From NCBI RefSeq assembly GCF_000384135.1, contig NZ_KB913028.1:1-64000 (forward strand): a stretch of 64,000 bases of DNA, in the 5' to 3' direction. The DNA is from Succinispira mobilis DSM 6222. GTDB lineage: Bacteria; Bacillota; Negativicutes; Acidaminococcales; Succinispiraceae. Positions within the stretch are counted from its first letter, which is position 1; each line of letters starts with the position of its first letter. The translations under genes were made by a program, and so were the position numbers. Under the pieces are notes generated by a model, which was not told the DNA's origin, did no database searches, and saw only the letters and a program-made list of their open reading frames with translations. Below are positions 13,113 to 56,150 of the stretch, piece after piece.

Positions 13113-13610
13113 CTACCATGCAAGATTAACAATGAACATAATCAACATAATACAACCCACAATTATTTTCCCAAAAGCTGCTAGCAACTGCATACTGGCT
13201 GCAACGCAAGCTATATACCAGGAGCGATAACGTGTTTCTCCGCGCAAGCGTTCAATAATAAACGCAAAGCAAAAAGCACCAATACTTGCCCCTAATAAAC
13301 TACCTACCAACGGCATAACTAAAGTCCCGACAAGACTGCCTATTATGGTTCCACAAGCAATAAAAAAAACTGTAAAAGTTGAAACCTGCTCTTTTTTTAT
13401 TCCTAAAAAACTTACGCCAAATTCCCAAATTTCGCCTAAAATAAACATAATAAATAACCACAATAAAGTGTTACCTGTAAGTGTCGAAAAATCCGTACTA
13501 ATGGCATATACAATTGCTAAAACTAAGATTAAGCCATTTCCAGCCAACCCAACTATCGTGAACATCAAAAACCCCAACGCCAAAACAGATAGCAAAATAC
13601 TTACTAGCAT
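13113..13610 (-). CDS. DUF456 family membrane protein
   Basis: 165 residues, five hydrophobic segments, rich in glycine and alanine, matching DUF456 in pattern (GLAGNGLILVLAIVYAI; EIWEFGVSFLGIKK; GTIIGSLVGTLV). I take the ATG at 13610, six bases after GGGAGG; an in-frame ATG six bases further upstream is too close to that site. Function unknown. It is followed 36 bases later by the VOC gene on the same strand. Confidence 0.8.
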   Translation of the reverse strand: MLVSILLSVLALGFLMFTIVGLAGNGLILVLAIVYAISTDFSTLTGNTLLWLFIMFILGEIWEFGVSFLGIKKEQVSTFTVFFIACGTIIGSLVGTLVMPLVGSLLGASIGAFCFAFIIERLRGETRYRSWYIACVAASMQLLAAFGKIIVGCIMLIMFIVNLAW

Positions 13611-52560: not shown

Positions 52561-52589
52561 TTGACAACTCATGTCGCCTGTGATGTAAT
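52561..52589 (+). promoter_or_regulatory. promoter of the P-type ATPase leader
   Basis: TTGACA (52561-52566), 17-base spacer, TGTAAT (52584-52589). Predicted start near 52596 gives an untranslated leader of about 130 bases. The 52323-52560 stretch upstream shows no gene. Confidence 0.75.
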
Positions 52590-52596
52590 ATTAACT

Positions 52597-52698
52597 AATT
52601 GAAATTAGTGGACAGACACTACGCTTTAAGTAGTTGTTGGGCAAATTTTGCAGCAGGTAAAAGCCTGTGGGACCTTTTCGTCTCACAGGCTTTTTTTT
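52597..52698 (+). promoter_or_regulatory. structured leader with terminator, candidate metal riboswitch
   Basis: Helices visible in the RNA are CACTAC with GTAGTTG (52617-52636), GCAAA with TTTGC (around 52641-52651), and CAGG with CCTG (around 52654-52668). A terminator follows: AAAGCCTGTGGGAC (52660-52673) pairs with 52680-52693, then TTTTTTTT. The 5' terminator arm overlaps the last helix, the usual logic of a transcriptional switch. The CTGTGGGAC at the junction is also seen in NiCo (czcD-type) riboswitches, and the downstream gene is a cation pump. The fit to the whole NiCo consensus is incomplete, so the class is not assigned. Confidence 0.5.
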
Positions 52699-52727
52699 AT
52701 CAGTTTTAGGTATAGGAGGTTGTTAAT

Positions 52728-55172
52728 ATGTCCTTAACAGGCTTAAGTTCACCCCAAGCAGAGATTCTCTTGAAAAAGTATGGTGAAAATATCTTAATTC
52801 CTAAACCCCAATTTAGCCAATTAACTAAATTACGCAAAATTATTTTTCAACCAATTTTTCTCCTGCTCTTTGCAGTGGCTAGTATTTATTTTTTGCTAGG
52901 CGAAGCAACTGATGGTTGTATAATGCTTTTTTTTGTTATGTTCATGCTCAGTATTAATCTTATTCAAGAATATAAAACTGAAAAAACTTTACAGAGCCTG
53001 CAAGATCTCACTACCCCAAACTGTAAAGTATACCGCGATCAACACTGGCAAACCTTACCTGCAACCTTACTTGTCCCTGGCGATCTTATTTCTTTAATCG
53101 AAGGCGATAAAGTTCCTGCCGATGGTAAATTAGTAGAAATTACAGATTTAGCTGTTAATGAATCTACGCTCACGGGCGAAGCAGATTTAGTTTGGAAGTC
53201 GCAAGAGGACACAAGTGAAAATTTTTGGCGATTAGATTATTGTTATGCCGGTACAGCAATTATTCAAGGCAGTGCTAAATTACTCCTTACAGCTACTGGT
53301 AGCAAAACTCATTTAGGTCAAATAAATCAAAGCCTTCAAAATGCACCCACGATACAAACGCCTCTAGAAATTCAAATTGGTCGGCTAGTAAAAACTTGTA
53401 CTTTGTTAAGCTTTTGCTTATTAAGCCTTGTTAGTCTTTTAACATATTTAAGTTCTCAAGATATTATCGCAGCAATTTTAGCAGGCTTAACCTTGGCTAT
53501 GGCAACCCTCCCTGAAGAATTCCCTGTAATTCTTACTGTGTTTTTAGCCATGGGTGCTTGGCGACTGGCCAAGCAGAATGCCCTTATTCGTAATATTGTG
53601 AGCACCCAAACTCTGGGCTGTGTAAGCGTACTTTGTTTTGACAAAACAGGTACTATTACGCACAATGAAATGACTTGCCAAGAATTATATCCTGCGACAA
53701 ATTTTAATTCACAACAACTTCTAGAAATAGCTGTATACGCCAGTGAAATTGGCGCCTATGATAAAATGGAGCAAGCAATTTTAACTTGTGCCCAAGGGCA
53801 ACAATTAAATATCCAGCAATTACAGCAATCTCCCTTAGTTACTGAATATCCCTTTACCAGCGAAACCAAAATGATGGGCCACGCCTTTGCCCTCCCCCAA
53901 ACAATTTTACTCGCTGCTAAAGGTGCCTGTGAAAGTATTTTGCCATTATGCAAGCTTACTCCACCTCAATTAGCTTGGTTTGAAGAACTGCAAAAAACTG
54001 CTGCAACTAAAGCCTATCGTTTAATTGCCGTCGCTCAACAAACTTATCCAACCGCAGCAACTTTACCTGCTAATTTAGCTAACAGTAGCTTGGAACTTGT
54101 AGGCATTTTAGCTTTTAATGATCCACCTCGAGCCGCGGCGCGTGCGGCTATTGAGCATTGTCAACAAGCCGGAATCAAAACCATTATGATAACCGGTGAT
54201 AACCATTTAACAGCCCAAAGTATTGCCCAACAGATTGGTATGACTGGTGATTATTTAACTGGCGAACAACTAAATAAGTTATCACAGACCGAGCTTCAAG
54301 CGGCACTTACCACCACCCGAATTTTCGCTCGCACTATCCCCCAGCAAAAACTTAGAATTATTCAAGCCTTACAAGCAAATGGTGAAGTTGTCGCTATGAC
54401 TGGTGATGGTGTCAATGATGCGCCGGCACTAAAATATGCCGATATTGGTATTGCGATGGGTAAAAACGGCACGGAAGTTGCCCGTCAAGCCGCTGATTTA
54501 GTTTTGCTCGACGACAATATTCTAACTATTATGGACAGCATTAAAGATGCCCGTCGAACTTATGATAATATTCGTAAAGCTATCAATTATGTCTTAATTA
54601 TTCACTTACCGATAATTTTATTTGCCCTATTAATTCCTAGTCTTAATTTACCCGTGCTCCTATTACCTATTCATATTGTCCTCCTAGAAATGTTGATTGA
54701 CCCTACCTGTTCCATAATTTTTGAACAGCAACCAGCTGAGCTTACGGTTATGAATCGTCCGCCGCATAAAATCAGCGATGATATTTTACTTCGTAAACAT
54801 GTCTTGACTAGTTGTCTGCAAGGAGTAGTTATCTTTTTAACACTATTTTCTAGCTACTGCTACCTCTTAAAAAACTCTATACCGCTAACATTGGCTCGAA
54901 CTTTTTGCTTAACTAGTTTATTAACCGCCAGCTTAATGCTGGTCTTTGTTAATCAAGCCTTTACACGTTCCTTTACCAAAAATTTTTCTTTTAACAAAGC
55001 TAATCTAATTATCAGCTTAATTGTCGGTCTCACAATTTTAGCCCTAAATTATAACAGCCTTTGCAATCTAATCTTTAAAACAGCCCCCCTAAGTTCTCTA
55101 CAACTTATAAGTGCTATTGCTTTAGGTATCGGCAGTACTATCTGGTATGATTTCACCAAAAAACCAGCTTAG
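52728..55172 (+). CDS. cation-translocating P-type ATPase
   Basis: An 814-residue P2-like ATPase with about ten membrane helices. Key motifs are intact: TGEA in the actuator domain (STLTGEADLV), PEEFPVILT in TM4 where calcium pumps usually have PEGL, the phosphorylated aspartate in CFDKTGTITHNEM, and TGDGVNDAPALKYADIGIAMG. The unusual PEEF suggests a different ion from Ca2+, perhaps Mn2+ or another divalent metal, which is inference. The short cytoplasmic N-terminus has no metal-binding CxxC. RBS AGGAGG. It lies behind the structured leader and terminator, and a universal stress gene follows after 114 bases. Confidence 0.9.
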   Translation: MSLTGLSSPQAEILLKKYGENILIPKPQFSQLTKLRKIIFQPIFLLLFAVASIYFLLGEATDGCIMLFFVMFMLSINLIQEYKTEKTLQSLQDLTTPNCKVYRDQHWQTLPATLLVPGDLISLIEGDKVPADGKLVEITDLAVNESTLTGEADLVWKSQEDTSENFWRLDYCYAGTAIIQGSAKLLLTATGSKTHLGQINQSLQNAPTIQTPLEIQIGRLVKTCTLLSFCLLSLVSLLTYLSSQDIIAAILAGLTLAMATLPEEFPVILTVFLAMGAWRLAKQNALIRNIVSTQTLGCVSVLCFDKTGTITHNEMTCQELYPATNFNSQQLLEIAVYASEIGAYDKMEQAILTCAQGQQLNIQQLQQSPLVTEYPFTSETKMMGHAFALPQTILLAAKGACESILPLCKLTPPQLAWFEELQKTAATKAYRLIAVAQQTYPTAATLPANLANSSLELVGILAFNDPPRAAARAAIEHCQQAGIKTIMITGDNHLTAQSIAQQIGMTGDYLTGEQLNKLSQTELQAALTTTRIFARTIPQQKLRIIQALQANGEVVAMTGDGVNDAPALKYADIGIAMGKNGTEVARQAADLVLLDDNILTIMDSIKDARRTYDNIRKAINYVLIIHLPIILFALLIPSLNLPVLLLPIHIVLLEMLIDPTCSIIFEQQPAELTVMNRPPHKISDDILLRKHVLTSCLQGVVIFLTLFSSYCYLLKNSIPLTLARTFCLTSLLTASLMLVFVNQAFTRSFTKNFSFNKANLIISLIVGLTILALNYNSLCNLIFKTAPLSSLQLISAIALGIGSTIWYDFTKKPA

Positions 55173-55286
55173 TCTTTTATTATAGTTAGCATTGTTTAGC
55201 CCTAATAATGTTTTTACCTACATTATTGTAATTTTCCCTAAAACCATATATAATAATATCAATTTGAAGTAAAGAGGTGGTCTTTG

Positions 55287-56150
55287 GTGCAACCCAAAAC
55301 TATGAGTAAAGTATTAGTCGCGATAGATTTTTCTGCTCAATCCATTCGTCTGCTAGAGTGCGTTTATGATTTATGCCAAAACGACGTAAAGACGATTATT
55401 CTAACCCATGTATTTGAAGATGCAAAAGATGCTAAGAGTTCTGGTGCCGAATGGCAAGAAGTTATTCATCAACTTACTAGTTTTAAAAAGAAATTAGTGG
55501 AAAAAGGGTTCGAGGTGAAAATAGTTACCCCCGCAGGCGAAGCCGCGATCGAAATCACTAATTTAGCTATTCAAGAGCAAGTTGACTTGATTATTATGGC
55601 CTCTTCTGGCAAAGGCTACATTCAAAGCGCCCTTATGGGTAGTACTTCTTTTGATGTTGTCCGCTTAGCAAAATGTCCTGTTTTTGTAGAACGCGGCAAA
55701 ATAGCTTTAAAAACCACCAATCAAGCTAAACCTGCGCGTCTAGCTAAAGTACTTTTACCCACCGACTTTTCTTTAGCTTCTTTAGAAGCACTAAGTATCG
55801 TTCGCTCTTTGCATGATAAAATTGGCGAAGTAGTTTTTGCCAATGTAATCGAAAAAAGTCGTTCTATTGACGATTTAAATGCTAAAGTAAAGCAAGCCGA
55901 GCGCAATCTAATCGAACTGGTAGAAGAAATGAATGCGTTTGGCATTAAAGCTTCTTATCGGGTAAAAGTAGAAGGGGCTGCCTCTAAAGTTTTATTGAAC
56001 TTAATGAAAGAAGAAGATATAACCTTAACAATTTTACCTAAAACTGGTGCTGGAATTGTTACTGGCTTACTAATTGGTAGTACGGCCCAAGCAATTTCGC
56101 TTAATATCGACCGCCCAGTACTCTTGGTACCCACTAGTCACGAAAATTAG
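55287..56150 (+). CDS. tandem universal stress protein
   Basis: A 287-residue protein with two UspA domains (about 5-140 and 150-285). The first begins KVLVAIDFSAQSIRLLE and ends with a GSTSFDVVRLAKCPVFV nucleotide-binding segment; the second begins KVLLPTDFSLASLEAL and ends with LIGSTAQAISLNIDRPVLLVP. Universal stress proteins bind ATP or other ligands and help under stress. The GTG at 55287 is seven bases after AGAGGTGG; an in-frame TTG one codon upstream is closer than usual. Confidence 0.88.
   Translation: MQPKTMSKVLVAIDFSAQSIRLLECVYDLCQNDVKTIILTHVFEDAKDAKSSGAEWQEVIHQLTSFKKKLVEKGFEVKIVTPAGEAAIEITNLAIQEQVDLIIMASSGKGYIQSALMGSTSFDVVRLAKCPVFVERGKIALKTTNQAKPARLAKVLLPTDFSLASLEALSIVRSLHDKIGEVVFANVIEKSRSIDDLNAKVKQAERNLIELVEEMNAFGIKASYRVKVEGAASKVLLNLMKEEDITLTILPKTGAGIVTGLLIGSTAQAISLNIDRPVLLVPTSHEN

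Follow-up and report, generated by a model that had tools for sequence, protein, structure and literature searches.

The P-type cation ATPase gene in the stretch of DNA analyzed here (64,000 nucleotides from Succinispira mobilis DSM 6222, henceforth the window) stands behind a structured leader, and the question that this locus raises is which kind of regulatory RNA, if any, controls it. The original prediction, made by eye from the sequence, placed a promoter, a folded leader and an intrinsic terminator before a cation ATPase gene and called the leader a possible metal riboswitch of unclear class with some NiCo-like character. This layout was borne out, and the class could be assigned as well: we consider the leader very probably a divergent NiCo (czcD) riboswitch, that is, a metal-ON transcription switch before a metal exporter gene. 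The locus has the following features.

52561-52589, + strand: sigma-70-type promoter, TTGACA-17-TGTAAT
52598-52677, + strand: NiCo (czcD) aptamer, a four-way junction of P1-P4, from RF02683 and R1 matches
52607-52613, + strand: degenerate 5' arm of P1, AGUGGAC (C52613-G52671, G52610-C52673, one U-C mismatch, a G-U and an A-U pair)
52615-52638, + strand: P2, with GAC (52615-52617) facing GUU (52636-52638) and ACUAC (52618-52622) facing GUAGU (52630-52634)
52639-52641, + strand: junction GGG (J2/3 GG and the first base of P3), presumed metal-binding guanines
52641-52651, + strand: P3 hairpin GCAA-AUU-UUGC, from model alignment and folding
52653-52668, + strand: P4 hairpin GCAGG...CCUGU, from model alignment and folding, whose 3' arm doubles as a terminator 5' arm
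52669-52671, + strand: junction GGG of GGGAC (J4/1 GG and a P1 G), presumed metal-binding guanines
52659-52698, + strand: intrinsic terminator, a 15-bp stem with a 6-base loop (52659-52694) and a U tract
52714-52719, + strand: Shine-Dalgarno sequence AGGAGG, read from the sequence, before the ATG at 52728
52728-55172, + strand: P2-like P-type ATPase of 814 aa, predicted to export a transition metal

The promoter has no second match of its kind in the window, where 0.09 are expected by chance, and a stricter scan missed it solely because position 2 of its -10 hexamer is G; transcription would start at about 52596, at the 5' edge of the aptamer. The ATPase open reading frame is intact, and a domain search found the full set of P-type ATPase domains in its product. 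A gene for a two-domain universal stress protein (55284-56150) starts 111 bases after the ATPase gene, and because a promoter-like TTGTAA-17-TATAAT (55226-55254) lies between the two, it is uncertain whether they would be under joint riboswitch control.

The class was addressed with the Rfam models for NiCo (RF02683) and yybP-ykoY (RF00080). RF02683 matches positions 52598-52677 end to end (model positions 1-96 of 96), scoring 30.7 bits (E = 8.2e-5 for the 701 bases searched and 5.8e-5 for the 2.1-Mb genome), which is below the gathering cut-off of 37 bits, a curation threshold and not a structural feature; a leader before a gene of the same ATPase family (L050) is likewise under the cut-off at 33.4 bits. 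Because of this low score, we built a second covariance model, R1, using 28 NiCo leaders drawn from the same order and class, with the window sequence left out. With R1 the window element scores 38.6 bits (E = 4.6e-10), no other convincing match turns up in the window, and in the 2.1-Mb genome only two places are significant, the window element and a second NiCo copy. On the minus strand, a very weak R1 match at 13320-13403 (13.7 bits, E 0.064), in whose alignment P3 and P4 are missing, is likely due to chance. The yybP-ykoY model gave no match in the leader even at E up to 10. Although this manganese-responsive class is found before P-type ATPases elsewhere and controls them there (PMC11477304), the absent RF00080 match, together with the R1 match and the presence of the NiCo four-way junction and invariant nucleotides instead, refutes a yybP-ykoY reading of this leader, to which we give practically no credence. 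The original prediction was right in seeing a structured metal riboswitch before a cation ATPase, but not in its remark on the alignment: the conserved segments that it could not line up well, CAGAC...GUUGGGC...GCAGCAGG...CCUGUGGGAC, do line up, and the deviation is confined to the 5' nine bases and P1, to which we attribute the low RF02683 score.

We then compared the window leader (row L002) with 39 homologues in a 40-row alignment. No nucleotide that is invariant across the homologues has been lost from the window leader. Those kept are the C and the A that precede P2, the J2/3 GG and the next G, the J3/4 A, and the GGGA at the junction of P4 and P1; both junction GG pairs are among them. 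The GGG at 52639-52641 is invariant in 40 of 40 leaders and in all 23 of a second set described below, and the GGG at 52669-52671 in 40 of 40 and in 22-23 of 23. Because the crystal structure of a NiCo riboswitch shows metal coordination by four highly conserved guanines, G46, G47, G87, and G88 (PMC7689651), these runs presumably contain their counterparts. Four helices surround the junction, with P2, P3, and P4 intact and P1 weak, reduced to C-G, G-C, G-U, and A-U pairs and a U-C mismatch; as modeled and without metal, P1 costs energy (-7.5 versus -13.5 kcal/mol). The outer part of P2 is changed from GGC/GCC to GAC/GUU, where the middle G-C pair has become A-U with pairing preserved, a replacement shared by a relative (L064) and by 4 of the 23 ATPase leaders from elsewhere. 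The conserved 5' segment ACAGUACAA is absent from the window leader.

The missing ACAGUACAA, the mismatched P1 and the score below the cut-off, which is the lowest or nearly the lowest among relatives, leave room for drift or for an altered metal response. Drift would mean a NiCo-derived leader that still folds and terminates but whose P1 and 5' segment have decayed, so that metal control is weak or lost. We regard this as improbable, since the invariant junction bases are all kept, the P2 change is compensated and not decayed, promoter, terminator and the 814-aa reading frame are intact, and a weak P1 also occurs in leaders L028, L031, and L050, which precede intact exporters. We take the divergent NiCo riboswitch in the window to be real and probably working.

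Covariation in the homologous leaders, which the original prediction had named as a check, was found. Among 39 distinct leaders 91.6% of the pairs are formed by the structure, a figure that is inflated because the alignment was fitted to that same structure; when partners are slid by one column, pairing falls to about 34%. Both-sided changes occur in 17 of 23 pairs as compared with a mean of 9.8 after shuffling, and none of 500 shuffles reached as high a value. The second set, 23 leaders that stand before ATPase homologues in other genomes and are mostly distinct from the first, covaries likewise; it includes one locus (L077) duplicating a model sequence. The assignment to the NiCo class is therefore supported by the covariance model, the invariant nucleotides, the covariation and the orthologous leaders.

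Folding energy carries less of this argument. The region 52588-52700 folds to -36.9 kcal/mol, well beyond 200 shuffled sequences (z = -5.3); the terminator contributes most of this (-23.9 kcal/mol alone), and the 80-nt aptamer by itself is of ordinary stability when folded singly against shuffles (z = -0.25). Because the signal comes mainly from the terminator and the aptamer does no better than shuffles, we do not count folding energy as evidence. Dominance of the predicted fold by the terminator is also what a plain attenuator, or a constitutive terminator that binds no ligand, would give, but the covariation and the invariant junction across homologues demand a conserved aptamer fold, and we hold that explanation to be very improbable.

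The terminator (one found where 0.2 are expected) and the NiCo aptamer compete for the same nucleotides. As had been predicted for the last hairpin, the terminator 5' arm reuses the 3' arm of P4, along with the 3' side of P1, the shared pairing positions being 52664-52668, 52671, and 52673, and the two folds are mutually exclusive. A terminator overlapping the aptamer is a feature of the NiCo class, and behind nearly all homologous aptamers a terminator likewise overlaps GGGAC. At the 5' end, an upstream hairpin of 6 bp (ACUAAU-UGAA-AUUAGU, about 52593-52608) could compete with P1, whose 5' arm it overlaps, and relatives have a shorter CAGU-ACAA-ACUG in the same place. As a conserved strand-exchange element that sequesters the P1 5' arm this hairpin is unsupported: when 40 leaders were folded against shuffles, z was near 0 in most of them and -1.1 in the window leader. 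Eight leaders from one family of the order (L003, L004, L007, L009, L012, L014, L016, and L017) have CTCTTTGCACTGC in common, placed after the -10 box and ahead of the aptamer (60 bases upstream), and several of them have a complementary GCAAAGA after the terminator and just before the Shine-Dalgarno sequence; the two may form a long-range pairing in the read-through mRNA. The window leader does not contain CTCTTTGCACTGC.

For the window leader and its ATPase we infer metal binding, the direction of the switch and metal export as follows. At low metal, the terminator would form by pairing of the P4 3' arm and GGGAC with GUCUCACAGG, so that RNA polymerase would halt ahead of the ATPase gene. 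As a transition metal builds up, its ions would bind cooperatively at the guanine-rich junction and lock P1-P4 together; the metal-bound aptamer would make CCUGUGGGAC unavailable to the terminator, and the ATPase would be made and would export the metal. This metal-ON, terminator-controlled layout corresponds to the published mechanism of the NiCo class, Fe(II) data included (PMC7689651). The metal of the class is contested, with Ni/Co favored by the in-line probing of its discoverers and Fe(II) by buffered anaerobic work (PMC7689651, PMC11477304). Because the presumed ligand guanines are unchanged, we expect the window leader to share the metal preference of the class, leaning to Fe(II); we give Fe(II), the leading candidate, about an even chance of being the physiological metal, which may instead be Co, Ni, or Mn.

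The second NiCo copy in the genome (1472488-1472578), which is the only place scoring above the window element with RF02683 (38.0 bits), precedes a CDF efflux gene, and by eye most NiCo leaders in relatives precede CDF-like genes. Two differing copies before two types of exporter in one genome, with the copy before the ATPase the more divergent, could mean that the latter is a variant of the NiCo scaffold adjusted to a different metal or affinity, so that each of the two exporters would have its own threshold. We think this unlikely, although clearly less so than drift, and its probability overlaps that of the main explanation, of which it is a refinement. The presumed first-shell guanines are identical in both copies, which differ in helices and in the 5' segment; a change of metal is therefore not indicated.

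The NiCo class is found upstream of metal exporter genes, and the window gene encodes a P-type cation ATPase, predicted to be an exporter, whose homologues have strong NiCo leaders. The best profile match of the protein is the PMR1-type Ca2+ ATPase, yet far under the cut-off (474 versus 798 bits), and it scores lower against P1B profiles than against those of P2-type Ca2+ pumps. Its motifs are PEEFP in M4, IHLPI in M5, and LLEMLIDPTCS in M6, whereas the P2 paralogues of the same order that are more distant mostly have PEGL in M4 and NLxTDA in M6. With Cys and His in its presumed site, the protein would be suited to a transition metal. These motifs are common to relatives without a NiCo aptamer and so do not track the riboswitch alone, and a literature search for PEEFP found nothing relevant.

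The genomic linkage is conserved. A NiCo aptamer of 66-74 bits lies directly upstream of each of the five ATPase homologues that are closest within the class (45-48% identity), and a sixth (38% identity) has an upstream match of 33.4 bits. A scan of named genomes with the ATPase alignment found 80 relatives, 23 of which have a same-strand NiCo match upstream of the matched gene, and the Rfam cut-off was passed by 14 of the 20 top-scoring ATPase loci scanned for NiCo. We placed 59 ATPases in a quick tree. Of the 31 rows in one supported clade, 25 carry the aptamer, among them every row of a 21-row subclade, as compared with 4 of the remaining 28 rows. The window ATPase falls in this NiCo-rich clade on a long branch, which leaves its exact place unsure. 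The link recurs in Bacillota, Actinomycetota, and Synergistota. The NiCo-ATPase leader of an Acetobacterium genome has a fluoride riboswitch (L084:229-288, 52.5 bits) about 1 kb upstream. Repeated NiCo control suggests, despite the nearest profiles being those of Ca2+ pumps, that the P2-like PEEFP/IHxP/DPTCS clade may export a transition metal, probably Fe(II); this, combined with a weak-P1 aptamer tuned to a threshold other than that of the CDF-linked copy, we propose tentatively, as a view with somewhat less than even prospects.

The window leader, a divergent NiCo member missed by the Rfam cut-off, implies that NiCo riboswitches are somewhat under-annotated. The most useful lead is the recurring link to one ATPase clade, which gives a testable substrate prediction for pumps whose nearest profiles are those of calcium transporters, and the two copies in one genome form a natural pair for the question of which metal the class senses.

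Compared with typical members of RF02683, the window leader shares the full-length match, the four-way junction, the invariant GGG...GGGAC, the terminator overlapping P4 and P1 and a predicted cation exporter downstream; it differs in its score below the gathering cut-off, its missing ACAGUACAA, its degenerate P1 and its P2 with GAC/GUU for GGC/GCC, and it precedes a P2-like ATPase where the usual NiCo target is a CDF gene. The NiCo-ATPase leader of Sporomusa silvacetica (L077/L047) and those of Clostridia relatives have the same gene pair and order, the overlapping terminator and a homologous ATPase (45-48% identity), but their aptamers are canonical (mostly 55-82 bits with Rfam), whereas that of the window is divergent. 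The czcD riboswitch of Listeria monocytogenes precedes and controls a PfeT-like P-type ATPase implicated in Fe(II) efflux (PMC7689651). The window likewise combines a czcD aptamer with a P-type ATPase; the Listeria enzyme is a P1B ATPase, whereas the window protein resembles P2-type Ca2+ pumps.
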